Source of the DNA: Kaistia hirudinis
GTDB taxonomy: Bacteria > Pseudomonadota > Alphaproteobacteria > Rhizobiales > Kaistiaceae
NCBI RefSeq assembly: GCF_014196455.1
Contig: NZ_JACIDS010000003.1
Coordinates: 806,001-870,000 of the forward strand
Reading direction: 5' to 3'
Length of the DNA stretch: 64,000 bases
The notes beneath the pieces were generated by a model, which ran no database searches, had not been told where the DNA came from, and saw nothing but the letters and a program-made list of their open reading frames with translations. Below, one piece after another: positions 16,588 to 58,419 of this stretch (position 1 is its first letter; each line of letters opens with the position of its first letter). The position numbers were made by a program, and so were the translations under genes.

Positions 16588-16624
16588 CTCAAGTGCAGCC
16601 GGGCCCGTCGGGCGGGGCTTCGTC

Positions 16625-38026: not shown

Positions 38027-38897
38027 GGCCGGCGCCGCCATAGCCGGGCAAGCGGTAAGCTTCGACCGCGGATCGGCCGAAGATCTGGGCCCGTTCGTCC
38101 GCAGAGAGGTCGACGAGGCATTCCTCGAGGGCCTCGACGACGCGGGGATAGCTCGCGGCGACCAGACAGACGGGCCAGTCCGTGCCGAACATGCAGCGAT
38201 CCACGCCAAAGATGTCAAGCACCTCAAGCACATAGGGCTTGAGGTCCTGCGGCGTCCAGCTCTGCCAATTTGCCTCCGTCACCATGCCGGACAGCTTGCA
38301 CCACACGTGACTGCGCTCGGCGCGGAAGCCGCGCATCAGCGCCGCCCATTCCTTGAAGCCGCCATTGCGGATCTCGGGCTTGGCGATGTGGTCGAGCACG
38401 AAACGCTGATCCGGCAGCGCCGCAGCCGTCGCCACGCATGAGGAAAGCTGCGGCAGGTTGGGCACGAGATCATAGACGAGCCCGGCCGCGCCGACGGCCA
38501 GAAGCCCGCGCCGGACATCGGCGCGCAGCAACCAGTTCGGATCGGCCTCGGTCTGGATCAGATGCCGCACACCGACGAGCCACTTGCCCTCCGGGGCGGA
38601 TTTGAGGCTCGCGATCGTCGCCGCGACGTCGGGGTCCGTCAGGTCGATCCAGCCGACGACGCCGGCGACGAAGTCCGTCGCCGCCGCCGTGCGGATAAAA
38701 TCCCATGTCTCGCCGAGATCGTTCCAGGTCTGGACGAGCACCGTGCCGTCTATGCCGCATGCCTCGAGCGCCGGCCGCAGATCGGCTGGGGCGAAAGGCC
38801 TGTTGATCGGCGCGAACGGGCCGCTCAGCCAGGCATAGTCGCCGCCGGCGGCTGGGTTCCAGAAATGGTGATGGGCGTCGATCCTCGGCGAAGACAT
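38019..38897 (-). CDS. Amidohydrolase-2 family lactonase (L-fuconolactonase-like)
   Basis: A 292-residue TIM-barrel hydrolase with N-terminal metal-binding motif DAHHHFWNP, QRFVLDHIAKP in the middle and FGTDWPVC near the C-terminus, the pattern of L-fuconolactonases and related sugar-lactone hydrolases. It would hydrolyse the lactone made by the flanking aldo/keto reductases. Overlap with the downstream gene and a 12-base gap to the upstream one indicate a single operon. Confidence 0.88.
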   Translation of the reverse strand: MSSPRIDAHHHFWNPAAGGDYAWLSGPFAPINRPFAPADLRPALEACGIDGTVLVQTWNDLGETWDFIRTAAATDFVAGVVGWIDLTDPDVAATIASLKSAPEGKWLVGVRHLIQTEADPNWLLRADVRRGLLAVGAAGLVYDLVPNLPQLSSCVATAAALPDQRFVLDHIAKPEIRNGGFKEWAALMRGFRAERSHVWCKLSGMVTEANWQSWTPQDLKPYVLEVLDIFGVDRCMFGTDWPVCLVAASYPRVVEALEECLVDLSADERAQIFGRSAVEAYRLPGYGGAGHD

Positions 38898-38909: not shown

Positions 38910-39896
38910 TTACCAGCGCTGGTGCACGTAGGGCTTGATCGTGGTGTCGTAGATCTCGCGGATCGCCCGCATCGTCGCATCGTCCAGCGGCGACAGCTCC
39001 GCCGCCTCGGCATTGGAGCGGGCCTGGGCCGGGTTGCGTGCACCGGGGATCGCGACCGTCACCGCGTCGAACATGAGGATCCAGCGGAGCGCGAACTTCG
39101 CCATCGTGGTGCCGCCGGGGACCAGCGGACGCACGCGCTCGACCGCCTCGAGGCCGACCTCATAGGGCACGCCCGAGAAGGTCTCGCCGACATCGAAGGC
39201 CTCGCCGTTCCGGTTGAACAGGCGATGATCGGACTCGGCGAACTTGGTGTCCTTGGTGAACTTGCCGGAGAGCAGCCCGCTCGCCAGCGGCACGCGGGCG
39301 ATGATGGCGACGTTCTTCTCGCGCGCCTGCCTAAAGAACTGCTCGATCGGACGCTGGCGGAAGGCATTGAAGATGATCTGGACGCTGACGACGCCCGGAT
39401 ATTCCATCGCCTTCAAGGCTTCCTCGACGCGCTCGACGCTGACGCCATAGTCCTTGATCTTGCCCTGGCCCTTGAGCTTGTCCAGGCGCTCGAACACTTC
39501 CGGATGATAGTAGAGGTCCGTCGGCGGGCAGTGCAGCTGGACCAGATCGAGTGTGTCCATCTCGAGATTGGCGCGGCTGCGGTCGATATAGGCCGTGAGG
39601 TTCTCGAGCGAGTAGCCTTCAACGGTCTGCGCGGGCAGGCGGCGCCCGGCCTTGGTCGCGATATACGGCCGCTCGCCGCCGCGCTCGCGGACGACCTTGG
39701 CAATCAGCTTCTCGGAATGGCCATCGCCATAGACGTCGGCGGTATCGATGAAGGTGACGCCGGTGTCGAGCGCGGCATGCAGCGCGGCAAGGGCCTCGTC
39801 GTCGTTCACCTCGCCCCAGGAGGCGCCGATGGCCCAGGCGCCGAAGCCGATTTCGCTCACTTTGCGGCCGGTTCGGCCGAATTCCCTCGATCTCAT
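38910..39896 (-). CDS. Aldo/keto reductase
   Basis: A 328-residue AKR. The catalytic D and Y lie in FIDTADVYGDG, the lysine in YIATKAGRR and the histidine in LVQLHCPPTD. The ATG at 39896 has an ideal AAAGGAG six bases upstream. First gene of the three-gene minus-strand operon, divergent from the branched-chain-type importer. The 151-base divergent region holds the promoter and operator of that importer. Confidence 0.88.
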   Translation of the reverse strand: MRSREFGRTGRKVSEIGFGAWAIGASWGEVNDDEALAALHAALDTGVTFIDTADVYGDGHSEKLIAKVVRERGGERPYIATKAGRRLPAQTVEGYSLENLTAYIDRSRANLEMDTLDLVQLHCPPTDLYYHPEVFERLDKLKGQGKIKDYGVSVERVEEALKAMEYPGVVSVQIIFNAFRQRPIEQFFRQAREKNVAIIARVPLASGLLSGKFTKDTKFAESDHRLFNRNGEAFDVGETFSGVPYEVGLEAVERVRPLVPGGTTMAKFALRWILMFDAVTVAIPGARNPAQARSNAEAAELSPLDDATMRAIREIYDTTIKPYVHQRW

Positions 39897-39958: not shown

Positions 39959-40009
39959 TTGACATCCCCCGTCAATGCCATTAACAGGAAACATGGTTGT
40001 ACGACAACC
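39959..40009 (+). promoter_or_regulatory. Putative promoter with GntR-type operator TTGT-ACG-ACAA
   Basis: A consensus -35 TTGACA at 39959-39964 is followed after 16-17 bases by a weak -10 (TTAACA/TAACAG). Immediately downstream, GGTTGT-ACG-ACAACC at 39995-40009 is a perfect 6+3+6 inverted repeat that would lie over the start of transcription. FadR-type GntR repressors bind sites of the form TNGT-N3-ACNA. A near-identical copy lies at 58407-58419. Confidence 0.65.
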
Positions 40010-40047: not shown

Positions 40048-41262
40048 TTGCGCTCACTTCTTTTGAGAAGCGCGTCGGCAGCGCTTTGCCTTGCCGCATC
40101 GGCCTATTCGGCGTCCGCCCAGGACGCCGACACGATCAAGATCGGCGTCGTTGCCGCCGAGTCGGGCGCGTTCGTTTCCGCCGGCCACACGCTGCCGGCC
40201 GGCGTGGGCCTGGCGGTCAAGGAGATCAACGATGCGGGCGGGGTGAAGATCGGCGACAAGACCTACAAGATCGAGCTCCTGAAGCGCGACGACCGTACCG
40301 ACATCGCGACGGCGATCGCCGCGACGCAGGAACTGGTGCGCGACGACAAGGTCGCGGCGATCTTCGGTTCGGAGTCGCACGACTTCACGCTTGCGATGGC
40401 CAAGATCACGCAGCCCGCCAAGGTGATCCACTTCGCCGGTAACAGCACGCTGGCCAAGGTGCTCAATCCCCAGTCCGTCGCGCCCGGCGGCGAGGATCAC
40501 TACCTCTTCCAGTCCGAGCCGCAGGAATTCCAGCGCTCGGGTTCGACGGCCCGCGGCGTGCTCAGCCTGTTGACCCCGCTCGTCGGCCATCCGCTGAAGA
40601 AGTCGGTCGTCATCGTCGGCAATGACGCGACCGGCCAGTTCCTCACCTCCTATTACGTGAAGGCGCTGAAGGCGGAGGGCCAGGAGGTTCCGGAAGTCAT
40701 CGCCTATCCGCCGGATACGACGGACTTTTCGCCCTTCCTGACCCGCGCGAAGAGCCTCAATCCGGACGTCGTGCACTTCTGGTACAATGGTGACTCGACG
40801 CTGACGGCGCTGCCGCAGGCGCTTGAGCTCGGCGTGGCGCCCAGCTATTTCCTGTTCGGCGTCGATCCCGGCATCTGGAAGGAACGCGGTCTCTCGGCAG
40901 ATGTGCCCGTGGCCATGAGCTGCGTGCCGATCTGCTGGGGCGAGTCCTCCAACGCCAATGCGAAAACCTATTTCAGCAATTACTTCGCAGCCGGCGCGCC
41001 GAAGGGTGTGACCTCGTCGGTCTCGCTCCTCTACTACGACTATGTCCACTTCCTCGCCGATGCCTGGGAGAAGGCCGGCACGCTCGATCCCGACGCGACG
41101 GTCGCCGCGCTGGAGAGCATGCATCACAAGGGCGTCGTCTCGGACGATCTGTCGTTCAACGCCTCGCACCAGGTCACCCACGCCACCGAAGTCTGCGCCG
41201 CGGCGCCGGGCGGGGCGATCACCTGCGCCATGCAGCAGCCGCCTGCCGAAGCGCCGAACTAG
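40048..41262 (+). CDS. Branched-chain-type ABC transporter, substrate-binding protein
   Basis: A 404-residue LivJ-type precursor. The TTG start at 40048 is supported by GGAGGA seven bases upstream and by the resulting signal peptide MRSLLLRSASAALCLAASAY, cleaved about residue 24. The mature part starts TIKIGVVAAESGAFVSAG and contains KIELLKRDDRTDIATAIAAT, typical of Peripla_BP_6. Many such receptors bind small carboxylates and not only branched-chain amino acids. The operon also encodes a LarA homologue, so a 2-hydroxyacid is the likely ligand. The 173-base gap that follows holds a weak 7-bp stem (41278-41284 / 41301-41307) and no gene. Confidence 0.9.
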   Translation: MRSLLLRSASAALCLAASAYSASAQDADTIKIGVVAAESGAFVSAGHTLPAGVGLAVKEINDAGGVKIGDKTYKIELLKRDDRTDIATAIAATQELVRDDKVAAIFGSESHDFTLAMAKITQPAKVIHFAGNSTLAKVLNPQSVAPGGEDHYLFQSEPQEFQRSGSTARGVLSLLTPLVGHPLKKSVVIVGNDATGQFLTSYYVKALKAEGQEVPEVIAYPPDTTDFSPFLTRAKSLNPDVVHFWYNGDSTLTALPQALELGVAPSYFLFGVDPGIWKERGLSADVPVAMSCVPICWGESSNANAKTYFSNYFAAGAPKGVTSSVSLLYYDYVHFLADAWEKAGTLDPDATVAALESMHHKGVVSDDLSFNASHQVTHATEVCAAAPGGAITCAMQQPPAEAPN

Positions 41263-41435
41263 ACGAGCGAGGGGGATATCGGTCCGCGTGAAGAAAGCGA
41301 GACCGATCAAAGCGATGGGGCCGTTCTGCTCTTTGCGGAGACGCTGAACGGCTCCTGGCCCTCAATCCTTGCGGACGGCGCCATGCGTGCCATGCCGTCG
41401 GCAACTCCGGCTCATACATTCGGAAGCGGACACCG

Positions 41436-42308
41436 ATGTTGCCTATCCTTATCCAGCAGCTGCTGAACGGCCTGTCGATCGCGAGCGTCATCACGCTGAT
41501 CGCCGTCGGCGTCACGCTCATCTTCGGGCTGACCGGAATCATCAATTTCGCCCATGGCGAATTCCTGATGATCGGCAGCTTCGTCACCTGGCTCGCCGTG
41601 CAGGCCGGAACAGGCTTCGTGCCGGCGCTGGTGATCGCGATCCTGGCCGTCGCCCTGATGGGCCTCGTCCTCGAGCGCGGCCTGTTCCGGTTCACGCTGA
41701 CGCGACCAACGAACGGGTTCATCGTCTCGCTCGGCCTCATCGTCGTGCTGCAGCACGTGGTCATTCTCTTCTTCGGTCCCAACCAGAAGAGCATCCCCCG
41801 TCCGCTGGCCGGGGTCTGGGACGTGGGCGGCGTGCGCATCGCCTCGGTGCGCGTCATGGTCATCCTCGTCACGATCGCCGTCGTCGCCATGACATTCGTG
41901 ATGATCACGCGAAGCCGCTATGGCCGCGCCCTCCGCGCGGCCGTGGAGGATCGCGATACGGCGGCGCTGATGGGCATCCCGGTCCGCCGCTACATCACCG
42001 GCGTCTTCGTTCTCGGCAGCGCGCTCGCCGGTCTCGGCGGCGCCCTCCTGATCGCGCTCTTCCCCGTGACTCCCTTCACCGGCGGAACGATGGTCATGAA
42101 AGGTTTCGCCGTCGCACTGATGGGCGGCCTCGGCAATCTTACAGGCGCCGTGGTCGCCGGCCTGATCCTCGGCATCGTCGAAGGGTTCAGCGCGGGCTAC
42201 GGCTTCTCGGAATGGACCGACGCCTATTCGTTCGGCCTGATGATCCTCGTCCTGCTCGTGCGGCCCAACGGCCTATTCGGCGGCACGAGCGGACCCAAGA
42301 TGGCCTGA
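41436..42308 (+). CDS. Branched-chain-type ABC transporter permease (LivH-like)
   Basis: A 290-residue inner-membrane permease with about eight hydrophobic segments. Signatures are GLTGIINFAHGEFLMIGSF near residues 34-52 and VALMGGLGNLTGAVVAGLILG near the C-terminus. It pairs with the LivM-like protein encoded 12 bases downstream. No unusual features. Confidence 0.93.
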   Translation: MLPILIQQLLNGLSIASVITLIAVGVTLIFGLTGIINFAHGEFLMIGSFVTWLAVQAGTGFVPALVIAILAVALMGLVLERGLFRFTLTRPTNGFIVSLGLIVVLQHVVILFFGPNQKSIPRPLAGVWDVGGVRIASVRVMVILVTIAVVAMTFVMITRSRYGRALRAAVEDRDTAALMGIPVRRYITGVFVLGSALAGLGGALLIALFPVTPFTGGTMVMKGFAVALMGGLGNLTGAVVAGLILGIVEGFSAGYGFSEWTDAYSFGLMILVLLVRPNGLFGGTSGPKMA

Positions 42309-42320
42309 TCCGGGCGCAGC

Positions 42321-43340
42321 ATGATCATGAAAAGCAGTTCCTCGCCTCTCGCCTCCCTGCTGCCGGCGCTCGCGGTGCTCGTCGTCCTGGCACTGGTTCC
42401 CGCGCTCGGTCCCAGCAACCGCATCCTGTCGCTCGCCATATCCGCGGGGATCAACATCGTCGCGCTTTATGGCCTGGCAGTGCTGTTCGGCCAGACCGGC
42501 ATTCTCTCCATGGGCCATGCCGCGCTTGTCGGCGTCGGGGCGTATACGGCGGCCATCCTGGCGCGCGACCTCGGCATCGGCTTCTGGGTCGCGCTTCCGC
42601 TCGGCAGCCTGCTGGCCGCGGCGGTCGCGGCCATTGTCGGCGTGCCGTCGCTCCGGGTTTCCGGGCACCATTTCGTCATCATGACCTTCGCCTTCGGCCA
42701 GTTGCTCAGCATCGTGCTGACCAATGGCGGCGCCTTCACGGGCGCGGCGACGGGGCTCGACCTGCAACTGCCCGTCACCTGGTTCGGCCGACCCGCCGGC
42801 GATCTCGTGCCATACTATTTCATTGTCATTGCCTTCGTCGCCATCAGCGCCGTCGCGAGCTGGCTCATCATCAACTCCTCCTATGGCCGCACGCTGCGCG
42901 CGATCCGCGAGAACGAGAAGCTGGCGGCGTCGCTCGGCATCAATGTCGGCCGGCACAAGATCGGCGCCTTCGTCGTCAGCGGCCTGTTCGCCGGCGTTTC
43001 CGGCGTGCTGCTCGCCTATTTCTTCCGCCACATCTCGCCCAACCAGTTCTCGGCCTTCCCCTCGATCTATCTCGCGCTGATGGTCATGATCGGCGGCGCG
43101 CGGCTGCTGCTCGGGCCGATTGCCGGCGGCATCCTCGTCTCGTTCCTGCCCGAGATGCTCAATCTCGATCCGGTTGAATCGCGCATCCTCTACGGAATCT
43201 GCCTGATCGCGGTGATCCTGCTGCTGCCGAACGGCCTCATCGCCGGCCTGTTCGACGGGCTGCGCGCGCTTGGAAGGCGGCTCGTCGGTTCCGCCCCGCG
43301 CCCCAACGTCCCGACCGACGGCACGTCGGAGACCGCATGA
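42321..43340 (+). CDS. Branched-chain-type ABC transporter permease (LivM-like)
   Basis: A 339-residue permease with about nine to ten hydrophobic segments and the LivM patterns GQTGILSMGHAALVGVGAYT and YGRTLRAIRENEKLAASLGI. Its 3' end overlaps the LivG-like gene by four bases. Partner of the LivH-like permease. Confidence 0.93.
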   Translation: MIMKSSSSPLASLLPALAVLVVLALVPALGPSNRILSLAISAGINIVALYGLAVLFGQTGILSMGHAALVGVGAYTAAILARDLGIGFWVALPLGSLLAAAVAAIVGVPSLRVSGHHFVIMTFAFGQLLSIVLTNGGAFTGAATGLDLQLPVTWFGRPAGDLVPYYFIVIAFVAISAVASWLIINSSYGRTLRAIRENEKLAASLGINVGRHKIGAFVVSGLFAGVSGVLLAYFFRHISPNQFSAFPSIYLALMVMIGGARLLLGPIAGGILVSFLPEMLNLDPVESRILYGICLIAVILLLPNGLIAGLFDGLRALGRRLVGSAPRPNVPTDGTSETA

Positions 43341-44062
43341 TGAGCGCCATTCTGCAAATCGAAGGTTTGCGCAAGCAGTTCGGCGGCGTGACGGCACTGG
43401 CCGGCGTCGACCTCGCGATACAGGAGGGCGAGATCCTCGGTGTGGTCGGGCCGAACGGCTCCGGTAAGACGACACTCTTCAATGTCGTGACGGGCGTTCA
43501 CAAGCCGAGCGGCGGGCGCGTGCTCTGGCATGGGCGCGACATAACGGGTCTGGCAGCGCACCAGATCTCGGGTGTCGGCATCGGCCATACGTTCCAGCAG
43601 GCCATGGCCTTTCCGGGGCTGCCGGTCATCGAGAATGTGCGCATCGCCTGCGAGCATGCGCGCCGATCGTCCCGTGCCTATCCCTGGACCACGCCGGAGG
43701 CGCTCCTGCGCTTCGTCGGCCTTTCCGATCTCGCCGGGGAGCGCGCGGGCGTCCTGCCCTTCGGCAATCTCCGCCTGCTCGGTATCGCGCTGGCGCTGGC
43801 GACACGGCCCTCGCTGATCCTGCTCGACGAACCGGCAGCCGGGCTCAACGACAAGGAGACGCTGGCGCTTGTCGGGCTGGTCAAGCAGTTGCCCGAGCAT
43901 GGCATCAGCGTCTGCGTCATCGACCACGACATGAAGCTGATGCAGATGCTTTGCCGGCGGCTGGTGGTTCTCGACTTCGGATCGAAGATCGCCGACGGGC
44001 CGATCCGCGATGTGTTGAACGATCCCAAGGTTCTGGAAGTCTATCTCGGGGGCGTGCTGTGA
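43337..44062 (+). CDS. Branched-chain-type ABC transporter ATPase (LivG-like)
   Basis: A 241-residue ATPase with Walker A GPNGSGKTT and Walker B LILLDEPAAGLN, plus the LivG C-terminal VLNDPKVLEVYLG. The usual LSGG signature is altered here: the region before Walker B reads VLPFGNLRLLGIALALAT, as in a minority of LivG proteins. It is coupled to LivM and LivF by short overlaps. Confidence 0.92.
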   Translation: MMSAILQIEGLRKQFGGVTALAGVDLAIQEGEILGVVGPNGSGKTTLFNVVTGVHKPSGGRVLWHGRDITGLAAHQISGVGIGHTFQQAMAFPGLPVIENVRIACEHARRSSRAYPWTTPEALLRFVGLSDLAGERAGVLPFGNLRLLGIALALATRPSLILLDEPAAGLNDKETLALVGLVKQLPEHGISVCVIDHDMKLMQMLCRRLVVLDFGSKIADGPIRDVLNDPKVLEVYLGGVL

Positions 44063-44790
44063 CGCTTCTTTCGGTTCGCGGCATCACGACCGGCTATGGC
44101 CCCTCCATCGTCAACCGCGATGTCTCCCTGACGCTCGGCGAAAACGAGATCATCACGATTCTCGGTCCGAACGGCGCCGGCAAGTCCACGCTGCTGCGCA
44201 CCATTGTCGGTCTCGTCCGTCCGCGCGCCGGCAGCGTCGTGATGGACGGGGAGGATCTGACGGGTCGTACGCCGGACGTCATGGCAAAGCGCGGCCTCGT
44301 TCTGGTGCCGGAGGGGCGGCGCATCTTCGCCGACATGACGGTGGCGGAAAATCTGCGCCTCGGCGCCTATGCGCGGCGCGATGCCGACGGCATCGAGGCC
44401 GACGTCGAGGTCATGGAGGGGTTCTTCCCGATCCTGGCGGCAAAGCGCCAGCAGAAGGGTGGCTCGCTCAGCGGCGGCCAGCAGCAGATGCTGGCGATCG
44501 CGCGCGGCCTGATGGCTCGCCCGCGGGTTCTGCTGCTCGACGAGCCCTCGCTCGGCCTGTCGCCGCTGCTGGTGAAGGAAATTCAGGCGATCATTCTCGG
44601 CATCGGCGCGCGCTTCGGCGCTTCCGTTCTGCTCGTGGAGCAGAACGCCGGTCTGGCGCTCTCGGTGGCATCGCGCGGCTACCTCATGCAGAACGGCCGC
44701 ATCGTCACCTGCGGCCCGATCTCCGAGCTGAAGGACATGGCGCTGATGCGCGAGCTCTATCTCGGCGGGGCGACGGAGCCAGCGTCATGA
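44059..44790 (+). CDS. Branched-chain-type ABC transporter ATPase (LivF-like)
   Basis: A 243-residue ATPase with GPNGAGKST, GLVLVPEGRRIFADMTVAEN, LSGGQQQMLAIARGL and LLLDEPSLGLSP. The start is a GTG at 44059 overlapping the LivG stop. Its own last codons overlap the larA start by four bases, so transport and racemase synthesis are directly coupled. Confidence 0.93.
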   Translation: MTLLSVRGITTGYGPSIVNRDVSLTLGENEIITILGPNGAGKSTLLRTIVGLVRPRAGSVVMDGEDLTGRTPDVMAKRGLVLVPEGRRIFADMTVAENLRLGAYARRDADGIEADVEVMEGFFPILAAKRQQKGGSLSGGQQQMLAIARGLMARPRVLLLDEPSLGLSPLLVKEIQAIILGIGARFGASVLLVEQNAGLALSVASRGYLMQNGRIVTCGPISELKDMALMRELYLGGATEPAS

Positions 44791-46079
44791 GCCCGGAACC
44801 GATCGCGCTATCCTATGGGCGCGGCCATCTGCCCGTGCGGCTGCCGCCGGGGTCGGTCGGCCATGTCATCCGCAAGCAGCCGCTGCCCAAGCTCGCCGAT
44901 CCCGCGGCGGCCCTTGCGGCGGTGCTGGCCGATCCGATCGGGTCGCGGCCGCTCGCCGAACTCGCGCGGGACCGGAAGAGCGCCTGCATCCTCGTCTGCG
45001 ACATTACGCGGCCCGTGCCGAACCGGCTTTTCCTGCGGCCGATGATCGAGGTGATGATCGCATCCGGCATTCCGCTCGCGGAGATCTCGATCCTCGTCGC
45101 GACCGGTCTGCACCGGCCCAATCTCGGCGACGAACTCGCAGAGCTGATCGGCGATCCCTGGGTGCTTGAGCATGTGCGGATCGTCAATCACGACGCACGG
45201 GATGATGCCGCCCATGTCGATCTCGGCTATACGCCGGTCCGCCGGACCCCGGTGAAGATCGATCGCCTGTTCGCTGAGGCGGATCTGAGGATCGCGACCG
45301 GGCTGGTCGAACCGCATTTCATGGCTGGCTGGTCCGGAGGCCGCAAGGTGATCGCGCCCGGCGTGGCCCATCACGAGACGATCAGGACGTTTCATTCCGC
45401 CCGCTTCATGGAGGACCCGCTCGCGGTCCAGTGCAACCTCATCGGCAATCCGCTGCATGAGGAGCAACTGGAAATCGTCCGTATGCTCGGCGAGGTCTAT
45501 GCGGTGAACACGGTGCTCGACGAGGACCGCGATCTCGTCTGCATCACCTTCGGCGAGATCATCGCCAGCCATCAGTCCGCGGTCGATTTCGTTAGCGCGG
45601 CGACGCAGGTGCCGCTCGACCGGCGCTTCTCAACCGTCGTGACCTCCTCCGCCGGCTATCCGCTGGACAAGACCTACTACCAGACGATCAAGGGCATGGT
45701 GACGCCGCTGGACATCCTTGCGCCGGGGGGAACGCTCATCATCGCTTCGGAATGCTCGGAAGGCTTCGGCTCGCCCGAATTCCGGGACGCCCAGGCACGC
45801 CTGGTCGCTCTCGGTCCCGACCGGTTCCTGGCGACTCTGACGGCCAGGCGTCTCGCCGAGATCGACGAGTGGCAGACGGAGATGCAGCTGAAGCCCATGC
45901 GCCTCGGCGAGGTCGCGTTGTTCACGACGGGCCTTGCGGGCGAAAGCCGCCGGCTGACGGGCGTCACATTGATCGATGATGTCGATGCCGCAATCGCAAG
46001 GAGCGTCGCGCGCTCGGGTGATCCCCACGTCGCGGTGATTCCGGAGGGGCCCTATGTCGTGCCGCGCTTCGCACCATAG
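44787..46079 (+). CDS. larA: LarA-family nickel-pincer-dependent racemase/epimerase
   Basis: A 430-residue homologue of lactate racemase, which interconverts 2-hydroxyacid stereoisomers using the nickel-pincer nucleotide cofactor. The residues known from Lactiplantibacillus LarA can all be aligned: R75 in DITRPVP, H109 in ATGLHRP, H177 in EPHFMAG, the cofactor-attaching lysine K187 in SGGRK, nickel ligand H203 in FHS and K302 in YQTIKGM. The enzyme should therefore be active. LarA homologues accept various 2-hydroxyacids, so lactate itself is not certain. It is coupled to a branched-chain-type importer by a four-base overlap; larC, larE and larB follow at 48-50.8 kb. Confidence 0.93.
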   Translation: MSPEPIALSYGRGHLPVRLPPGSVGHVIRKQPLPKLADPAAALAAVLADPIGSRPLAELARDRKSACILVCDITRPVPNRLFLRPMIEVMIASGIPLAEISILVATGLHRPNLGDELAELIGDPWVLEHVRIVNHDARDDAAHVDLGYTPVRRTPVKIDRLFAEADLRIATGLVEPHFMAGWSGGRKVIAPGVAHHETIRTFHSARFMEDPLAVQCNLIGNPLHEEQLEIVRMLGEVYAVNTVLDEDRDLVCITFGEIIASHQSAVDFVSAATQVPLDRRFSTVVTSSAGYPLDKTYYQTIKGMVTPLDILAPGGTLIIASECSEGFGSPEFRDAQARLVALGPDRFLATLTARRLAEIDEWQTEMQLKPMRLGEVALFTTGLAGESRRLTGVTLIDDVDAAIARSVARSGDPHVAVIPEGPYVVPRFAP

Positions 46080-46086
46080 CGTCAGG

Positions 46087-46130
46087 CGGCATCCCGGCGC
46101 TTCACTGGCTACCTTTGCGGTGGGATGCCG
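46087..46130. terminator. Stem-loop between convergent larA and gntR
   Basis: A 9-bp stem (CGGCATCCC / GGGATGCCG) with a 26-base loop in the 103-base gap between two convergent genes. No clear T-run follows on either strand, so the terminator assignment is tentative. Confidence 0.4.
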
Positions 46131-46182
46131 TTCTGCGGTCGTCGTGCGATCAGGCGGGGCCCGCGCGTCGCTCACGCACGCG

Positions 46183-46929
46183 TCACGAGGAGAGTTTCGC
46201 GTCCCGCATCTCTCCGAAGCGCGCCATACTCTTGGTGAGATGGCTCCGGATGGTTCGCCGCGCCGCCGCCTCGTTGCCGTCGCGGATGGCGGTCAGGATC
46301 GCCTGATGCTCGCGCCGCATGCGTGCCGCATGCTGTTTGCGTTCCGCGGGCGTCATGCGATCGAGGCGCGCCCACTGGCGCGGGACCATGCTCGTTCCGA
46401 ACGTATCGAACAGCCGCGCATAATAGGGATTCTGGGTCGCCCGGAGAATCGCGCGGTGGAAGGCGTAGTCCTCCTCCGCGCCATAGCCCCCGCTTTCGAT
46501 CGCCTCGTCGAGCGCGGCAAGGCACGCCTGCATCTGCTCGATGTCGTGTTCGGTACGACGAAGCGCTGCGAGACCCGCGGCCTCGCATTCGATGCCCAGC
46601 CTGAGCTCGAGCACGCGGCGGACCTCGTCGATCGATTCGAGATCGTCGGGCAGGATCGTGAAGGAGGTCGGCTTGGGATTCGCGAGGACAAAGGCGCCGA
46701 GCCCCTGGCGGGTCGCAATGAGGCCCTTGGCCCGCAACGTCGCGAGCGCCTCGCGGACGATAGTGCGGCTGACGCCCGTCGCCCGGACGATCTCCTGTTC
46801 GGTCGGCAGGCGCTGGCCGGGCTTGAGGGCGCCAGACTCGATCTGGGCGATGAGCGTGTCGGCGAGGCCGCTACGCAGATTGGGGCCCTGGTGGATGGCG
46901 CCGAATACGACGTCGTCCTTGTCGGTCAT
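46183..46929 (-). CDS. GntR-family regulator, FadR subfamily (first in lar region)
   Basis: A 248-residue regulator with winged-helix motif LPTEQEIVRATGVSRTIVREAL and an FCD effector domain with EEDYAFHRAIL. Close resemblance of the HTH to those of the GntR genes at 50.8 and 61.1 kb suggests related binding sites. It is divergent from the hydroxyacid dehydrogenase and larCEB genes; the 127-base region between them holds a degenerate copy of the TTGT-ACG-ACAA element. Likely controls the lar genes in response to a hydroxyacid or oxoacid (inference). Confidence 0.9.
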   Translation of the reverse strand: MTDKDDVVFGAIHQGPNLRSGLADTLIAQIESGALKPGQRLPTEQEIVRATGVSRTIVREALATLRAKGLIATRQGLGAFVLANPKPTSFTILPDDLESIDEVRRVLELRLGIECEAAGLAALRRTEHDIEQMQACLAALDEAIESGGYGAEEDYAFHRAILRATQNPYYARLFDTFGTSMVPRQWARLDRMTPAERKQHAARMRREHQAILTAIRDGNEAAARRTIRSHLTKSMARFGEMRDAKLSS

Positions 46930-47015
46930 CTGGCTGTGAAATCCCGCAATGAACTGTTGCGCTTGCGCACCTTGCCTGTTGCTAGCGTAATCGCGCGCGA
47001 AAAGCAAAACCGATC

Positions 47016-47040
47016 GTTGTCGTAAGCTGGTACGAAACAA
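47016..47040. promoter_or_regulatory. Degenerate operator pair upstream of the larCEB group
   Basis: GTTGTCGTA at 47016-47024 equals nine bases of the reverse-oriented operator found at 39996-40008. TCGTA (47020-47024) and TACGA (47031-47035) form an inverted repeat with a six-base spacer, followed by AACAA. The site lies 17 bases before the start codon of the hydroxyacid dehydrogenase gene. The spacing differs from the perfect copies, so this is a candidate only. Confidence 0.35.
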
Positions 47041-47056
47041 AAAGGAAAGTAACGGC

Positions 47057-47968
47057 ATGAAGGAACGGATCGGATTCGTCGGTGTCGGCGCCATGGGTTC
47101 GGGTATGGCAGGTAATCTGCTTGCCAAGGGCTGGCCGATTACCGTCCTCGCGCATCGTCGACGTGAGGCGATCGATCGCCTTGTCCAGTCAGGCGCAGAG
47201 GAGGCCGCCAACGCGCGTGATCTCGCTGTTGCAAGCGATGTCGTTATTCTCTGCGTCACTGGCTCCGACCAGGTCCAGCAGCTTCTGGCCGGGCCGGACG
47301 GCATCGTGGCGGCCGGCAAGCCGCTCCTGCTCATCGATTGTTCGACATCCAACCCGTCCGTGACGACACGGCTCGCCGCGGATCTCGCGCCGCGCGGCAT
47401 AACCCTGATCGATGCCCCGCTGGCTCGTACGCCCAAGGAGGCGGCCGAGGGGAAGCTCGACGTCATGATCGGCGGGCCGGAGGAGGCCGTGGCGCGTGCC
47501 CGGCCCATTCTCGAGGCTTTCGCAGCGCGCATCGTCCCGACGGGGCCGGTCGGGACCGGTCACACCATGAAGCTGCTGAACAATTTCGTGTCGATGAGCT
47601 ATGCGGCGGTCTATTCCGAGGCCCTGATGCTGGGCGCCAAGGCGGGCCTGACGCCGCAGGTCTTCGACAGCGTTCTGCGCGGCAGTCGCATGGATTGCGG
47701 CTTCTATCGCGCGTTCTTCGAATTCGTGCTGGAACGCGACGAGAATGCGCAGCGCTTTGCGATGGTCAACGCGTTGAAGGACATGTCCTATCTCGCATCG
47801 TTCGCGCTGGCCTCCGGCGCGGTCAATCCGATCAACGCCGCCGTGCGCAATTCCTTCGCGACGGCCGTCGCCGCGGGGCAGGGCGAAGCGTTCGTGCCGG
47901 CGCTCTCCGACGTGATCGCGGCGGCCAATGGCCTATCGCTCGTCGGTCCGGTCGATCGGGCCGAATGA
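47057..47968 (+). CDS. 3-Hydroxyisobutyrate-dehydrogenase-family oxidoreductase
   Basis: A 303-residue NAD(P)-dependent beta-hydroxyacid dehydrogenase. The Rossmann motif GFVGVGAMGSGM spans residues 6-17, the substrate segment DAPLARTPKEA 119-129, and catalytic K172 with N176 in GHTMKLLNN. The family includes tartronate semialdehyde and 3-hydroxyisobutyrate dehydrogenases. The usual G-G after the DAP motif is replaced by A-R, so the substrate is probably not one of the standard ones. AAGGAAAG precedes the ATG. It overlaps or abuts larC. Confidence 0.9.
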   Translation: MKERIGFVGVGAMGSGMAGNLLAKGWPITVLAHRRREAIDRLVQSGAEEAANARDLAVASDVVILCVTGSDQVQQLLAGPDGIVAAGKPLLLIDCSTSNPSVTTRLAADLAPRGITLIDAPLARTPKEAAEGKLDVMIGGPEEAVARARPILEAFAARIVPTGPVGTGHTMKLLNNFVSMSYAAVYSEALMLGAKAGLTPQVFDSVLRGSRMDCGFYRAFFEFVLERDENAQRFAMVNALKDMSYLASFALASGAVNPINAAVRNSFATAVAAGQGEAFVPALSDVIAAANGLSLVGPVDRAE

Positions 47969-47979
47969 GGGCCGGACGG

Positions 47980-49290
47980 ATGCTCCAGCTGCACCTTGAT
48001 CCGCTCGGGGGTGTCGCAGGCGACATGTTCGTCGCCGCGCTGCTGGACCTCCGCCCCGATCTGGCTCCGGGCCTCCAGGCGGCACTTTCGCATTGTCCCC
48101 TGATCGCGGACGTGGATTGCACGGTCCTCGCACATGACGACGGGATATTGACCGGCAAGCGGTTCGTGGTGAGCAAGCCGGCCGCGACGGACATCGTATC
48201 AAGGCCGCATCGCCACGAGCCCTCCGATCTCCACCGGCATCCCCATGCTCCTGCGCCGGGACACACCCATGGAGACCCGCATGAGGATCAGGGCCATGGC
48301 TCGCCGAGCCACGGCCACATCCATTGGCGCGATATCCGCGCGGCCATGGCGCGGTCGCCGCTCGACGAGGTCACCCGCGCGCATGCGATCGGGATCTTCT
48401 CGCTTCTAGCCGGTGCCGAGGCGCGCATCCATGGCCAGGCGGTCGATGACGTGGCGTTCCACGAGGTGGGGGCCTGGGATTCCATTGCCGACATCGTCGC
48501 CGCGTCCTGGCTGATCGGCCGGCTCGACGTGCAGCGTTGGACGATCGGCGCAATACCGATCGGTAGCGGCCGCGTCCGGACGGCCCACGGTCCGCTCCCG
48601 GTCCCCGCGCCGGCCGCCGCCCGGCTGCTGGAGGGCTTCGAGGTGATGGATGACGGCATTGCCGGCGAGCGGGTTACGCCGACCGGCGCCGCGATCGTCG
48701 CCTATCTCTGCGGCAATCGCGATACGCCCGTCGCCGCGCGGGTGCTTCGCGCGTCAGGCTACGGCTTTGGTGCCCGCCGCCTGCCGGGCATCAGCAATTG
48801 CCTCCGCGTGCTCGCATTTGAAGCGCGGGCCGCCCATGCGCCCGCTACCGATGCTGTGGCGGTGCTCGAATGCGAGATCGACGATCAGAGCGGCGAGGAT
48901 CTCGCGACGGCGCTGGCGCATCTGCGGGCCGCGCCCGGCGTGATCGACGCCTTGCAGGCCCCTGTCTATGGAAAGAAGGGCCGGCTGATGACGCACCTGC
49001 GGATTCTGGCGGAGCCCGCCCATCGTTCGGCGGTCGAAGAGGCGATCTTCCACGAGACGACCACGCTTGGCATTCGCCATGCCATTGTCGCGCGGACCAT
49101 CCTGCGCCGCGAGATGAGGGAGATCGAACGGGACGGGCGCGCATTTCGCGCCAAGATCGCGGATCGGCCCGCGGGCCGGACCGTGAAGATAGAGGCGGAT
49201 GACCTCGCCGGGATTGGTGGCGCCGCGGATCGCTCGCGGCTGCGCGCCGGTCTGGAGGCAAAGCTGTTGCGGGAGGGGGAGGGGCCATGA
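47980..49290 (+). CDS. larC: LarC, nickel insertion protein for the pincer cofactor
   Basis: Inserts nickel into the dithiolated pyridinium nucleotide in a CTP-dependent step to complete the LarA cofactor. The 436-residue protein starts with LHLDPLGGVAGDMFVAALL, the LarC N-terminal signature, and contains GAIPIGSGRVRTAHGPLPVP and ECEIDDQSGEDLA. Between residues about 76 and 116 lies a histidine-rich insert with more than ten histidines, a likely nickel store. Its length matches a one-chain LarC; the ribosomal frameshift that splits LarC in Lactiplantibacillus is not needed here. An ATG at 47965 overlapping the previous stop is an alternative start; 47980 fits the family and has GAGGG upstream. 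Confidence 0.93.
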   Translation: MLQLHLDPLGGVAGDMFVAALLDLRPDLAPGLQAALSHCPLIADVDCTVLAHDDGILTGKRFVVSKPAATDIVSRPHRHEPSDLHRHPHAPAPGHTHGDPHEDQGHGSPSHGHIHWRDIRAAMARSPLDEVTRAHAIGIFSLLAGAEARIHGQAVDDVAFHEVGAWDSIADIVAASWLIGRLDVQRWTIGAIPIGSGRVRTAHGPLPVPAPAAARLLEGFEVMDDGIAGERVTPTGAAIVAYLCGNRDTPVAARVLRASGYGFGARRLPGISNCLRVLAFEARAAHAPATDAVAVLECEIDDQSGEDLATALAHLRAAPGVIDALQAPVYGKKGRLMTHLRILAEPAHRSAVEEAIFHETTTLGIRHAIVARTILRREMREIERDGRAFRAKIADRPAGRTVKIEADDLAGIGGAADRSRLRAGLEAKLLREGEGP

Positions 49291-50081
49291 CGCGGCAGCG
49301 GCTCGAGGCGGTGCTGTCCTCGCTCCCCCCGGTGGCCGTTGCGGTCAGCGGCGGCGTCGATTCCATGACGCTCGCCGTGCTGGCGCATCGCTTCCTCGGA
49401 CCCGCGGCGGTCGAAATCTTCCACGCCGTTTCGCCGGCCGTGCCCGTCGACGGGACCCGGCGGGTGCAACTTTGGGCGGAGCGCGAGGGCTGGAACCTCG
49501 TCGCGCTCGATGCGGGCGAGTTCGCCGACGGGCGCTATCGCGACAATCCCGTCAACCGCTGCTTCTTCTGCAAGGGCCATCTTTATGGCGCGATTGCTGC
49601 GGTTTCGCGCCGTCAGATCGTGTCCGGGACCAATATCGACGATCTCGGAGACTATCGGCCGGGCCTCGACGCCGCCCGTAGCGCGGGCGTGCGCCATCCC
49701 TATGTCGAGGCCGGGATCGACAAGGCGGGTCTGCGCGATCTCGCGCGCCAGCTGGGGCTCGGCGCGGTGGCGGAGCTGCCGGCCTCACCCTGTCTGGCGA
49801 GCCGGGTGGAGACCGCGATCCCTATCGATCCGGAGGCGCTGCTGGCCGTCGATGCCGTCGAGAAGCTCGTGATCGAACGCCTCGGCGTGCAGACCGTCCG
49901 CTGCCGCATTCGCCGCGCCGGCGTTGTGGTCGAGCTGGACGCGCCCGAATTGGCCGCGCTGCACGGCGATGGCGAGCTCGTGGCGGCGATCACGGCTCTT
50001 CTGCCATCGGATCTCGCGGGCCGGTCGATCGCGTTCGAGCCCTATCGACGGGGCAGCGCATTCTTGGGAGCCGGCGCATGA
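49287..50081 (+). CDS. larE: LarE, ATP-dependent sulfur transferase for the pincer cofactor
   Basis: A 264-residue PP-loop enzyme that adenylates the biscarboxylated pyridinium nucleotide and adds sulfur. The PP-loop is SGGVDS (residues 21-26). Cysteines C92 and C95 in RCFFCK and C169 in SPCLASR are present. LarE proteins with three such cysteines are thought to hold an iron-sulfur cluster, whereas the Lactiplantibacillus enzyme has only the sacrificial cysteine in the CLASR region. The gene overlaps both larC and larB by four bases. Confidence 0.92.
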   Translation: MTRQRLEAVLSSLPPVAVAVSGGVDSMTLAVLAHRFLGPAAVEIFHAVSPAVPVDGTRRVQLWAEREGWNLVALDAGEFADGRYRDNPVNRCFFCKGHLYGAIAAVSRRQIVSGTNIDDLGDYRPGLDAARSAGVRHPYVEAGIDKAGLRDLARQLGLGAVAELPASPCLASRVETAIPIDPEALLAVDAVEKLVIERLGVQTVRCRIRRAGVVVELDAPELAALHGDGELVAAITALLPSDLAGRSIAFEPYRRGSAFLGAGA

Positions 50082-50767
50082 CCTCCCCCGACATCGTCTT
50101 CGACTATGAGCGGGGCGAGCGCATCGGGCTGGATGAAGCGGTGTTCTGTGCCGGCAAAGGCCCGGCCCAGATCAGCGCGATCCTGTCCCTGGCGGCGGAG
50201 CGGGGCAGGGGCCTTCTGCTGACGCGCCTCGACGCCGATGGTCTCGCGCAGCTTCCTCCCGACCAGGCGCGCGCGCTCGACTATTGCGTGATGTCGCGGA
50301 CGGCATTCTTCGGTCCGCTGCGGCCGGTCACGAGCCGGGGCCGGGTCGCGATCGTGGCGGCCGGGACGTCGGATGCCGTCGTCGCGCGCGAGGCCGAGCG
50401 CACGCTCCGCCATGCCGGCATCGAGGCGTCGCTCATCCTCGATGTCGGGGTCGCCGGGCTCTGGCGCCTGCTGGAGCGGATCGACGAGATTCTCCGATTC
50501 CCGGTCGTGATCGCGGTCGCCGGCATGGATGCGGCAATCGCCAGCGTCCTCGGCGGGCTGTTGCGCGGCACGATCATCTGCGTGCCGACATCGGTCGGCT
50601 ATGGCGCCGCCGAGGCGGGGAGGACGGCGCTGAACGCCATGCTATCGAGCTGCGCTCCCGGCCTTCTGACCTGCAATATCGACAGCGGCTATGGCGCCGC
50701 CTGCGCGGCGATCCGCATCCTGAACAGCTTTCCCGACGCGCAACAGGATCCGTCGCGCGGCTCTTGA
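50078..50767 (+). CDS. larB: LarB, pyridinium-3,5-biscarboxylate nucleotide synthase
   Basis: First enzyme of pincer-cofactor synthesis: carboxylates nicotinic acid adenine dinucleotide and hydrolyses it. The 229-residue protein has an N-terminal region ending near residue 85 and a PurE-like domain with AGTSDAVVAREA, VPTSVGYGAA and NIDSGYGAACA. The catalytic cysteine is C192 in SCAPG, the position equivalent to the active-site cysteine of LarB. It is the last gene of the dehydrogenase-larC-larE-larB unit and converges with the next gntR; a bulged hairpin occupies about 50769-50802 between them. Confidence 0.92.
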   Translation: MTSPDIVFDYERGERIGLDEAVFCAGKGPAQISAILSLAAERGRGLLLTRLDADGLAQLPPDQARALDYCVMSRTAFFGPLRPVTSRGRVAIVAAGTSDAVVAREAERTLRHAGIEASLILDVGVAGLWRLLERIDEILRFPVVIAVAGMDAAIASVLGGLLRGTIICVPTSVGYGAAEAGRTALNAMLSSCAPGLLTCNIDSGYGAACAAIRILNSFPDAQQDPSRGS

Positions 50768-51542: not shown

Positions 51543-52976
51543 TCAAACGTCGCGAAGGGGGAGAATACGCCCTTCGCTGAGAAGGTGCCGAGGATCGAAC
51601 GCGTCCTTGATCCGGCTGGCAAGCTCCAGCGTCAAGGCGTCGGCGCGCTTCAGATAGGCCTTCTGCTTCACGCGGCCGATTCCATGCTCGGCGCTGATCG
51701 AGCCGCCATGCCGGTCGATCACGTCGAAGATGATGTCTTCCGCCGCATGGAAGAGGTCATCCATGGTCTCGGGCGGCATGCCAAGAGGCGGGACCACGTT
51801 CATGTGGATATTGCCGTCGCCCACATGGCCATAGGTCACGACGCGCGCTTCGGGGTGAGCTTGTGCCAAAGCGGCGAGGCTCTGCGCGACGAAGGACGCG
51901 ATGCTGGAGATCGGCACCGATACATCCGTCCGCAGATATCGTCCGCCGCGCCCCTGCGTCTCCACCATCACCTCGCGCAACCGCCACAGCCGAGCGGCCT
52001 GGGCCCTGTTCGATGCGATCACGCCGTCCAGCACCAGTCCGTCCGTATGGCCGAGAAAGTCCTCGACCAGCGCCCTCAGATCGACGCGCCCGCCAGCCGC
52101 CGTCTCCAGAAGCACATAGACCGGATAGGGCTGCGAAAGCGGATCCTCGAGACCGACCTGCGCGTCGATCGCGATTTCGATGCAGCCGCGCAGCAGCAAT
52201 TCGAACGCCGAGAGGAGATCGCTGCACTCGCGGCGCGCGCGCGCATAGAGCGCCATCGCATCCTCGACGGAGGCGAGGCCCACCAGCGCGGTCTCGACCT
52301 GCGTCGGGCGCGGAAAGAGCTTGAGCGCGACGGCCGTCACGATGCCGAGCGTGCCCTCGCTGCCGATGAACAACTGCTTCAGGTCGTAGCCGCGATTGTC
52401 CTTGCGCAGCGTCCGCAACCCGTTCCAGACCCTTCCATCCGCCAGGACCACCTCGAGCCCCAGCACGAGGTCGCGCGTCATGCCGTAGCGCAGCACGTTG
52501 AAGCCGCCGGCATTCGTCGCGACATTTCCGCCGAGCCGGCAACTGCCCTGCGCGCCGAAGGTGATGGGGAGAAGGCAATCCAGCTCTTCCGCCGCGCGCT
52601 TGGCCTCTTCGAGGATGCAGCCCGCCTCGACGACCATGGTGAAGTCAATCGGATTCACGGAGCGCACGGTGTTCATCCGTTCCAGCGAAACGACGACCTC
52701 GCCGCCGGGAAAGCTCGGCACCGCGGCGCCCACCAGCCCGGTCAGCCCGCCCTGCGGGACCACATGGATGCGGTGCTCGTGGCAGCAGCGCATCAGGAGG
52801 CTGACCTCTTCGACGGAACGGGGGCGCACAACGGCCAGCGGGCGGGCGTAATGGTCGCCCGTTCCGTCCCGGCTGTAGCGTTCGATCTCGGTATCGTCCT
52901 GCGTCAGGATCTCGGCCAGGAGCGTGGCACCGAGGGCCGTGAGCGCCAATTCCTGAGGGGAAAGAACAGCATGCAT
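51543..52976 (-). CDS. FAD-linked 2-hydroxyacid dehydrogenase (GlcD/D-lactate dehydrogenase type)
   Basis: A 477-residue flavoprotein that oxidises 2-hydroxyacids such as D-lactate or glycolate to the 2-oxoacid. The FAD_binding_4 domain has VVPQGGLTGLVGAAVP near residues 72-87, and the C-terminal FAD-oxidase domain has TYGHVGDGNIHMN and SAEHGIGRVKQ. No iron-sulfur partner (GlcF) is encoded nearby, so it is probably a single-subunit D-lactate-dehydrogenase-like enzyme passing electrons to quinone or cytochrome. Given the racemase in the neighbouring operon, it would consume the stereoisomer the racemase supplies. Confidence 0.92.
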   Translation of the reverse strand: MHAVLSPQELALTALGATLLAEILTQDDTEIERYSRDGTGDHYARPLAVVRPRSVEEVSLLMRCCHEHRIHVVPQGGLTGLVGAAVPSFPGGEVVVSLERMNTVRSVNPIDFTMVVEAGCILEEAKRAAEELDCLLPITFGAQGSCRLGGNVATNAGGFNVLRYGMTRDLVLGLEVVLADGRVWNGLRTLRKDNRGYDLKQLFIGSEGTLGIVTAVALKLFPRPTQVETALVGLASVEDAMALYARARRECSDLLSAFELLLRGCIEIAIDAQVGLEDPLSQPYPVYVLLETAAGGRVDLRALVEDFLGHTDGLVLDGVIASNRAQAARLWRLREVMVETQGRGGRYLRTDVSVPISSIASFVAQSLAALAQAHPEARVVTYGHVGDGNIHMNVVPPLGMPPETMDDLFHAAEDIIFDVIDRHGGSISAEHGIGRVKQKAYLKRADALTLELASRIKDAFDPRHLLSEGRILPLRDV

Positions 52977-53029: not shown

Positions 53030-53060
53030 GTTATCATACAACGCTGGTTTTGAACATCAA
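53030..53060 (-). promoter_or_regulatory. Promoter of the oxidase-gntR operon with overlapping operator
   Basis: On the minus strand, TTGATG (complement of 53055-53060), a 16-base spacer and TATGAT (complement of 53033-53038) form a good sigma-70-type promoter. GTTGTATGATAAC (complement of 53030-53042) lies across the -10 and fits GTTNT-N3-ANAAC, like the perfect operator upstream of the importer. Binding there would block RNA polymerase. The divergent gloA gene could share the site. Confidence 0.6.
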
Positions 53061-54602: not shown

Positions 54603-54609
54603 CGGGTCC

Positions 54610-57134: not shown

Positions 57135-57242
57135 CAGACTGGATCCCGCTCACGGCCGGCAGGGCCGGCAACTACCGAAAAGCGCGCCGGCAGCATGTGC
57201 CGGCGCGGACGGAACAATGCGTCCTGCGGAAACGAGGACGTA

Positions 57243-58406: not shown

Positions 58407-58419
58407 ATTGTACGACAAC
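58407..58419. promoter_or_regulatory. GntR-type operator ATTGTACGACAAC
   Basis: Identical in 12 of 13 bases to the element at 39996-40008 upstream of the branched-chain-type importer. It lies in the 216-base divergent region (58323-58538) between the binding-protein gene and the GMC oxidoreductase gene. On the minus strand TACAAT (complement of 58407-58412) could be a -10 box within the site. The shared sequence suggests one GntR repressor acts at both places. Confidence 0.65.

Follow-up and report, generated by a model that had tools for sequence, protein, structure and literature searches.

The 64,000-nucleotide stretch of the Kaistia hirudinis genome analysed here (contig NZ_JACIDS010000003.1, positions 806,001 to 870,000; hereafter the window) carries a complete lar system, i.e., the predicted 2-hydroxyacid racemase LarA and the proteins LarB, LarC and LarE, which mature its nickel-pincer nucleotide (NPN) cofactor. 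As the preliminary description of this DNA had stated, the system is coupled to a branched-chain-type (Liv) importer. Our analysis suggests that the lar genes are an optional part of a patchily distributed regulon which oxidises a sugar or sugar acid, and that Lar most likely makes both enantiomers of a small acid, for example lactate, usable to the cell. A narrower proposal, that LarA acts as a stereochemical adaptor which supplies a D-2-hydroxyacid dehydrogenase within this sugar-acid regulon, falls in our estimate a little short of an even chance. Its fullest form is slightly more doubtful: the nickel-pincer racemase would be a removable adaptor in a two-importer regulon, where LarA and the three maturation genes let a D-specific FAD dehydrogenase use the L-2-hydroxyacid from a non-phosphorylating deoxysugar route.

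A putative operator shared by several transcription units

Relatives of LarA were found by peptide patterns in the GTDB collection; 80 of the 382 found were kept, a sample that is biased to close ones and may lack the records most similar to the window's genome, and their genes were called by a simple codon-usage script. A livF sequence lies directly 5' of larA in 18 of the 80 (hereafter the cassette loci), one of which, L030, has a livF remnant of 118 amino acids; in the other 62 larA stands in other surroundings. The recurrence in 18 of 80 relatives argues that the livF-larA linkage is not due to chance.

A palindrome search of the cassette upstream regions gave, prior to any counting in the window, the pattern GGTTGTnnnACAACC, which is conserved in the loci. 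Allowing one mismatch at most, the window has three sites of GTTGTnnnACAAC against 0.20 expected, and none of 100 shuffles reaches three. These sites begin at 39996 (between the aldo/keto reductase gene AKR2 and the gene of the Liv-type solute-binding protein, SBP), 53030 (between fad and the glyoxalase gene) and 58407 (upstream of a sugar importer). Taking the window, the cassette loci and two further genomes (G440 and G476) together, the operator was found within one mismatch upstream of 18/19 SBP, 14/16 AKR2, 15/15 glyoxalase, 10/18 fad and 3/4 sugar-binding protein genes, counts that are not independent since SBP/AKR2 and fad/glyoxalase each share one intergenic region. In the same loci it was absent upstream of hadh (0/18), gntR1 (0/16), larA (0/20), larC (0/14), the diketo-acid hydrolase gene (0/12), the short-chain dehydrogenase/reductase (SDR) gene (0/16) and gntR2 (0/16). 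The regulator GntR2 carries an FCD domain and the operator is of the TNGTNNNACNA type, the FadR-subfamily consensus as quoted in a passage of PMC2230225; both features by which the FadR subfamily is recognised in sequence are thus present. The shared putative operator means that liv-larA is probably under common control with sugar-type import, the AKR and lactonase genes and the FAD enzyme.

A different conserved element, GCTA...AAAGCAAA, marks the gntR1-hadh promoter (window positions 46929-47057) in place of the shared operator. It was seen in 14 of 16 aligned rows, the exceptions being L031, where the start is probably miscalled, and L129; L005 and L041 were left out of this alignment.

Gene content of the locus

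The gene list and coordinates of the preliminary description agree with the open reading frames (ORFs) and domain matches. On the + strand the order is SBP-livH-livM-livG-livF-larA, followed by gntR1 (-), hadh-larC-larE-larB (+) and then gntR2 and fad (both -); the two gntR genes are of the FCD type. The start of larA within the final four bases of livF is real, and so is the coupled larC-larE-larB unit next to hadh, which ends at 47968, just ahead of the larC ATG at 47980, with four-base overlaps between larC and larE and between larE and larB. The interval 40048..50767 described earlier is too narrow: the unit sharing the operator extends over roughly 37046-58419, and the operator itself, the sugar importer, the AKR and lactonase genes, the FAD dehydrogenase and, in relatives, a pair of genes for a dehydrogenase of the 2-keto-3-deoxyfuconate (KDF) type and a hydrolase had escaped notice. 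The features are as follows.

37046..38041, - strand: AKR1, aldo/keto reductase (PF00248; at least 50% identity in 12/18 cassette loci)
38019..38897, - strand: lactonase-like amidohydrolase (PF04909; in 13/18 cassette loci)
38910..39860, - strand: AKR2, aldo/keto reductase, candidate aldose dehydrogenase (PF00248; in 13/18 cassette loci)
39996..40008: putative FadR-type operator GTTGTACGACAAC between AKR2 and SBP, exact match
40048..41262, + strand: SBP, solute-binding protein of the Liv (HAAT) type (PF13458, Peripla_BP_6)
41436..42308, + strand: livH-type permease (PF02653)
42321..43340, + strand: livM-type permease (PF02653)
43337..44062, + strand: livG-type ATPase (PF00005, PF12399)
44059..44790, + strand: livF-type ATPase (PF00005)
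44787..46079, + strand: larA, predicted NPN-dependent 2-hydroxyacid racemase (PF09861, PF21113; pocket F178, M179, W362, Q363 by alignment count)
46183..~46929, - strand: gntR1, GntR regulator of the LldR/GlcC/NanR type (homologue in L127 with GntR and FCD domains)
47057..47968, + strand: hadh, beta-hydroxyacid dehydrogenase family (PF03446, PF14833)
47980..49290, + strand: larC (PF01969; TIGR00299, 177 bits against a cut-off of 90; NF052512, 112 against 50)
49287..50081, + strand: larE, CXXC-C type (TIGR00268, 249 bits against a cut-off of 150; C92, C95, C169)
50078..50767, + strand: larB (NF033503, 236 bits against a cut-off of 175)
50810..~51529, - strand: gntR2, FCD-type GntR regulator (PF00392, PF07729)
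51543..52949, - strand: fad, FAD-linked 2-hydroxyacid dehydrogenase of the GlcD/D2HGDH/D-LDH family (PF01565, PF02913)
53030..53042: putative FadR-type operator between fad and the glyoxalase gene, one mismatch
53137..53553, + strand: glyoxalase/VOC-family gene (homologue in L019 matches PF00903)
53634..58289, - strand: ribose-type sugar ABC importer, comprising permease, RbsA-type ATPase, permease and binding protein (PF02653, PF00005 twice, PF02653, PF13407)
58407..58419: putative FadR-type operator upstream of the sugar importer, one mismatch

The host genome (G000, 5.26 Mb, the window lying on its contig C3) has a single Lar_N match. LarB, LarC and LarE all score above curated NCBIfam cut-offs. 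The lactonase-like protein reaches 204 bits with the L-fucono-1,5-lactonase model NF052480, under the cut-off of 400, and its sole PDB match at 1e-15 is 4dlf (143 bits); the closest PDB entry to AKR2 is IolS, 1pyf (121 bits). The FAD enzyme scores 255 bits with glcD against a cut-off of 568, and 383 and 318 bits with PDB entries 3pm9 and 6lpn, respectively. No NCBIfam equivalog cut-off was reached by hadh, the best match being sulfolactaldehyde reductase (177 against 348 bits). We discarded the ORF at 46054-47025 (+) as a gene, since it is antisense to gntR1 and has no Pfam or NCBIfam match; ORFs that overlap annotated genes in other frames were regarded as shadows. Further along the window, at 61893-62843, a gene for 5-dehydro-4-deoxyglucarate dehydratase (KdgD) scores above the curated cut-off.

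Pocket and family placement of LarA

Aligned to LarA1 of Lactiplantibacillus plantarum, LarA retains the equivalents of R75, H108, H174, K184, H200, Y294, Q295 and K298, so the earlier statement that all catalytic and cofactor residues are present holds. The Lar_N and LarA_C domains together with the R75/H108/H174/K184/H200 equivalents make it a member of the LarA superfamily by sequence. Among PDB entries, the Isosphaera pallida enzyme LarA_Ip (9eid, 319 bits) ranks above L. plantarum LarA (198-199 bits) and malate racemase (185 bits). With the lactate racemase equivalog NF033504 LarA reaches 333 of the 460 bits required, and it stays below the NCBIfam cut-offs for the malate, LarAH10 and other models as well.

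At the positions of LarA1 F175, F176, W358 and T359, LarA has F, M, W and Q. This pocket is found in 80 of 81 sequences (the window and the 80 relatives) regardless of the neighbouring genes, the exception being L065 with F, V, W, Q, and in all 23 sequences of a second genome-derived set, which may overlap with the 80. It departs from the pocket F, F, W, E/Q given as usual for the lactate racemase group (LAR) in passages of PMC11770544. It agrees with short-chain aliphatic racemase group 2 (SAR), which combines a bulky hydrophobic pocket with an L-M or F-M loop according to passages of PMC7583248. In a tree of 107 sequences the LarA family branches with LarA_Ip, with support of 1.0, against LarA1 and a lactate racemase scoring over the cut-off. 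The tree thus separates LarA from these two, a weak test as only three sequences lie outside the family; stretches holding stop codons were dropped, including L131, an over-cut-off lactate racemase. The cassette LarAs are not monophyletic: 7 of the 27 members of the smallest clade that encloses them come from non-cassette loci.

Passages of PMC11851776 list L-lactate and 2-hydroxybutyrate as the best substrates of LarA_Ip, followed by L-glycerate and others; an exotic substrate of LarA is therefore not indicated. Genes of the lutABC type lie about 2 kb from larC-larE-larB-larA in L033 (2913-11290), and homologues of the LutB cluster are also near larA in L025, L034 and L036, i.e., in 4 of the 80 loci in total. 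Since the pocket residues and these neighbours point to substrates of lactate size, the earlier proposal stands only in part: LarA is no straightforward lactate racemase equivalog, judged by the cut-off and its branching with LarA_Ip, and the further claim that its substrate is something other than lactate does not follow. From the sequence evidence, lactate would be the first substrate candidate and glycerate the second.

We did not retain three possible names for the enzyme. A plain lactate racemase is opposed by the score under the cut-off; malate racemase by W and Q at 358 and 359 in place of H/Q and K, and by scores of 278 against 500 and 253 against 462 bits; and D-gluconate 2-epimerase, as a firm claim, by the pocket F, M, W, Q in place of the usual E, V, A, H.

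Glycerate kinase or KdgT-type permease genes adjoin larA in six relatives. In L067, L077 and L052 a LarA with the same pocket adjoins a KdgT-type permease gene, in L067 and L077 also a glycerate kinase gene, which suggests that these LarAs are glycerate racemases. In L004, L037 and L044 a LarA of the same family adjoins oligopeptide-type ABC importer genes, assigned by family tests in L004 and by cluster in the other two.

Composition of the cassette among relatives

The closest named relative found is Kaistia dalseonensis (L002), with 96% identity of SBP and 84% of LarA. At an identity of at least 50%, and with some misses due to loci which end at contig ends and are thus partly unread, the cassette loci hold livH, livM, livG and hadh in 17/18 each; SBP, gntR1, gntR2, larC, larE and larB in 16/18 each; fad and the sugar permease in 15/18 each; the glyoxalase gene in 14/18; and the lactonase, AKR2 and AKR1 genes as listed above. 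The 4-nt-overlap start of larA is usable in 11 of the 18, L030 included.

Two further genes complete the picture in relatives: a KDF-dehydrogenase-like SDR in 15/18 and a diketo-acid hydrolase in 11/18 cassette loci. They lie between larB and gntR2 in 13 of the 15 loci with the SDR and in 10 of the 11 with the hydrolase. The SDRs share 55-63% identity with L-2-keto-3-deoxyfuconate 4-dehydrogenase of Herbaspirillum huttiense, whose carboxylate-binding cluster Arg148/192/214 is kept in 16/16 of them (L022 counted). The L031 hydrolase has L-2,4-diketo-3-deoxyrhamnonate hydrolase (8gsr, 314 bits) as its best PDB match and lies under the NCBIfam cut-off (421 against 500 bits). In the known route, as described in passages of PMC11199699, the SDR and hydrolase steps lead to pyruvate and L-lactate.

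Homologues of this pair are also encoded elsewhere in the K. hirudinis genome. The region L088 (G000:C4:22000-41000) carries at 4306-15135, on one strand, the hydrolase homologue (70%), an SDR, a sugar-binding protein, a GntR regulator, a membrane D-lactate dehydrogenase (PF09330) and an Ldh_2 gene; its SDR is only 30-33% identical to the cassette SDR. In L141 (G000:C4:291000-310900, at 9305-16699) a KDF-dehydrogenase-like SDR (56%) accompanies an MR_MLE enzyme, importer-like genes, a lactonase-like gene (32% to that of the window) and a gene of 109 amino acids, with no shared operator. In L142 (G000:C2:1-16000, at 2098-6738) a second hadh paralogue (52%) lies about 3 kb from another such SDR (51%).

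Gain and loss of the lar genes

Among 279 genomes of the order, SBP with at least 64% identity was found in three (the own genome, G440 and G476); five have LarA at 1e-60, and only two of these, the own genome and G440, also carry that SBP. Among 385 genomes of the class, LarA was found in 23 and SBP (1e-60) in one, the own genome; three class-level LarA matches, which had no locus, were left aside. Of the window's genus, five further genomes were sampled, and none has SBP (1e-20) or LarA (1e-60). We infer from this that the block is patchily distributed, as lateral transfer would give.

The genome G476 has the sugar importer, glyoxalase, fad, gntR2, gntR1, AKR2, lactonase and liv-SBP genes adjacent to one another, with three occurrences of the operator. 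The 33 kb read contain no larA, larCEB or hadh, and genome-wide there is no LarA at 1e-60 and no LarB above the cut-off. The genome G440 has the sugar importer, lactonase, AKR2, SBP-liv, larA (about 260 bases 3' of livF), gntR1, hadh, larCEB, hydrolase, gntR2 and fad, while no SDR, AKR1 or glyoxalase gene was called at its locus. In turn, the metagenome-assembled L030 keeps larA-gntR1-hadh-larCEB-gntR2-fad at the locus with the livF remnant, and L022 combines larA with hadh, SDR and hydrolase, has LarB elsewhere in the genome, and shows no liv or fad homologue in its 10-kb flanks. The patterns of G476, L030 and L022 thus indicate that Lar and Liv are separable. The gene set stays grouped, though in rearranged order, in L017, L006 and G440.

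The Liv-type importer

The SBP model has a mean predicted local distance difference test (pLDDT) score of 87.5, and its predicted fold is of the Liv/HAAT type. The 50 best solved folds are only 14-22% identical to it and bind 4-hydroxybenzoate, leucine, urea and other ligands; as these are unrelated, we assigned no receptor ligand from the structure in spite of the good model. All five proteins score under the NCBIfam Liv and Urt cut-offs shown, the Liv values being 44 against 477 bits for SBP, 153 against 379 for LivH, 115 against 366 for LivM, 196 against 362 for LivG and 193 against 441 for LivF.

Possible roles of LarA in the regulon

In the adaptor proposal, one FadR-type operator would serve Liv-larA, AKR/lactonase, FAD dehydrogenase-gntR2, glyoxalase and the sugar importer. 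A sugar would be imported and oxidised by an AKR, and the lactone opened by the lactonase-like enzyme. By homology, the KDF-dehydrogenase-like SDR of most cassette relatives and the diketo-acid hydrolase of many would then split the sugar acid into pyruvate and an L-2-hydroxyacid, which would be lactate if the substrate is a 6-deoxy-L-sugar; in K. hirudinis the cleavage may be carried out by the homologues located elsewhere. The NPN cofactor from LarB, LarE and LarC would activate LarA, which, as its pocket and family suggest, may turn the L- into the D-hydroxyacid, and the FAD dehydrogenase, of a D-specific family, may oxidise the latter to the 2-oxo acid. Consistent with this are the pocket F-M-W-Q, one residue off the L-M-W-Q of LarA_Ip; the retention of hydrolase, SDR, hadh and larA in L022 and of the regulon without LarA or LarB in G476; and, for lactate, the D-lactate dehydrogenase and Ldh_2 genes beside the hydrolase operon in L088.

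A number of observations weigh against this proposal. The window lacks the SDR and the hydrolase between larB and gntR2, and the homologues elsewhere in the genome (hydrolase 70%, SDR 55%) lie in loci where the shared operator is absent. Outside the cassette, only L022 of the 62 loci has an SDR or hydrolase of at least 50% identity near larA, which limits the link to the cassette lineage and L022 and does not extend it to the LarA family at large. The SDR reaches no NCBIfam equivalog cut-off, and that of L023, the one compared with PDB, scores higher with human BDH2 (311 bits) than with L-KDF dehydrogenase (287 bits). No dehydratase was seen in the unit in a search covering the MR_MLE family; the nearest such gene of the window's genome lies about 33 kb off, and no such gene was listed for the contig that carries the cassette in the L002 genome (nine genomes were checked in this way, by position only). 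Three FMN_dh genes above the cut-off in the own genome are candidate L-lactate dehydrogenases, so a racemase is not obviously needed for L-lactate. Furthermore, a lactate route leaves hadh, of the beta-hydroxyacid type, without a role, and glycerate suits this gene better; the same-pocket LarAs adjoining glycerate kinase or KdgT-type genes suggest glycerate, too. Finally, the coupling of larA is with livF rather than with the sugar genes, and a 15-letter operator pattern with three mismatches allowed shows no enrichment in the window (7 sites against 7.2 expected).

Because the locus is without SDR and hydrolase, no dehydratase was seen, three FMN_dh genes exist and larA is coupled to liv, a role in import keeps a real, if minor, share of the probability. 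Here the Liv importer would take up a small 2-hydroxyacid (lactate, 2-hydroxybutyrate, 2-hydroxyisovalerate or glycerate), LarA would make the enantiomer that fad or hadh can oxidise, and the sugar genes would answer the same signal. The position of larA within the liv operon, with the overlapping start usable in 11 of 18 relatives, speaks for it, as does the presence of 4-hydroxybenzoate, leucine and urea binders among the receptor's nearest folds, which makes a carboxylic acid ligand plausible; same-family LarAs also adjoin other ABC importers, of the Opp type in L004 and of the Rbs type in L007/L008. It is opposed by G476, which retains liv without LarA or LarB, and conversely by the retention of lar with a mere livF remnant in L030 and with no liv homologue in the L022 flanks; the receptor, too, is without a close relative of known ligand. 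Considerably less probable is that an ordinary broad-range lactate racemase cassette has spread with unrelated neighbours, the linkage reflecting descent only. The patchiness of the cassette fits such a history, since its absence, SBP and LarA alike, from the five other genomes of the genus makes whole blocks seem to move together, and so does the lack of a separate clade of cassette LarAs. Yet the shared operator links separate operons, and the set stays together where its order is rearranged (L017, L006, G440). Least probable of the four, in our estimate, is that LarA is a C2-epimerase of the aldonate formed by AKR and lactonase, with the FAD enzyme oxidising the epimer to a 2-keto sugar acid. 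The AKR, lactonase, LarA and 2-hydroxyacid dehydrogenase genes under one operator would suit such a scheme, and LarAH10, with a hydrophobic pocket, epimerises D-gluconate (passages of PMC11770544). However, the gluconate epimerases described there usually have E, V, A, H, against F, M, W, Q in 80/81 sequences here, and the latter pocket persists whatever the neighbours, including where larA lies beside lutABC-type genes.

Relation to known systems

The enzyme and its cofactor system are of known kinds. LarA shares with LarA_Ip (LarAH2/SAR; PDB 9EIA, 9EID, 9EIF), its closest solved relative at 41% identity, the NPN family and the pocket residues M, W and Q; it differs by F for L at the first pocket position and by a gene set with a Liv importer and sugar genes. 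With LarA1 it has in common the cofactor-binding and catalytic residues and the presence of LarB, LarC and LarE, yet the identity is 33-34% and M replaces F at position 176. Its LarE has the CXXC-C cysteine set, as in Thermotoga maritima, where such a LarE is a [4Fe-4S] enzyme (passages of PMC9283937), in contrast to the single-cysteine type of the LarA1 system.

The non-phosphorylating L-fucose/L-rhamnose route 3 (FucA-FucG, LRA5/LRA6), which ends in the pyruvate and L-lactate mentioned above (PMC11199699, in part), has its likeness here in the lactonase-like gene and, among cassette relatives, in the SDR and hydrolase. Of the lactonase, dehydratase, KDF dehydrogenase and diketo-acid hydrolase of this route, only a lactonase-like gene was found at the window locus, dehydratases having been searched as MR_MLE family only; the locus thus differs by the lack of the last two enzymes and the dehydratase, and by the addition of a racemase and a FAD enzyme. 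As for the importer, the five-component set and the folds are those of the branched-chain importer LivKHMGF (HAAT), from which it differs in scoring under all the Liv/Urt cut-offs shown and in having an operator common with sugar genes. We take the FAD enzyme of the window to belong to COG0277. Dehydrogenases of COG0277 are noted near several LarA groups in passages of a 2020 survey (PMC7583248), so that a link of LarA to such an enzyme is not new in itself. What appears to be new, as far as literature listings go, is a Lar system that forms an optional component of a sugar-acid regulon which includes a Liv-type importer; among the titles and abstract openings covered, we found nothing relevant tying lactate racemase to L-fucose/lactonase, L-rhamnose or Rhizobium.

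The in vivo roles of LarA homologues are named as an important remaining question in passages of PMC7583248. Here, gain and loss provide a natural experiment, with nearly the same regulon present with and without the nickel racemase, and a specific role is thus testable. If true, the proposal would give NPN enzymes a catabolic role not met in the literature listings and passages covered, and would place a Liv-type receptor and a conserved operator in a defined pathway.

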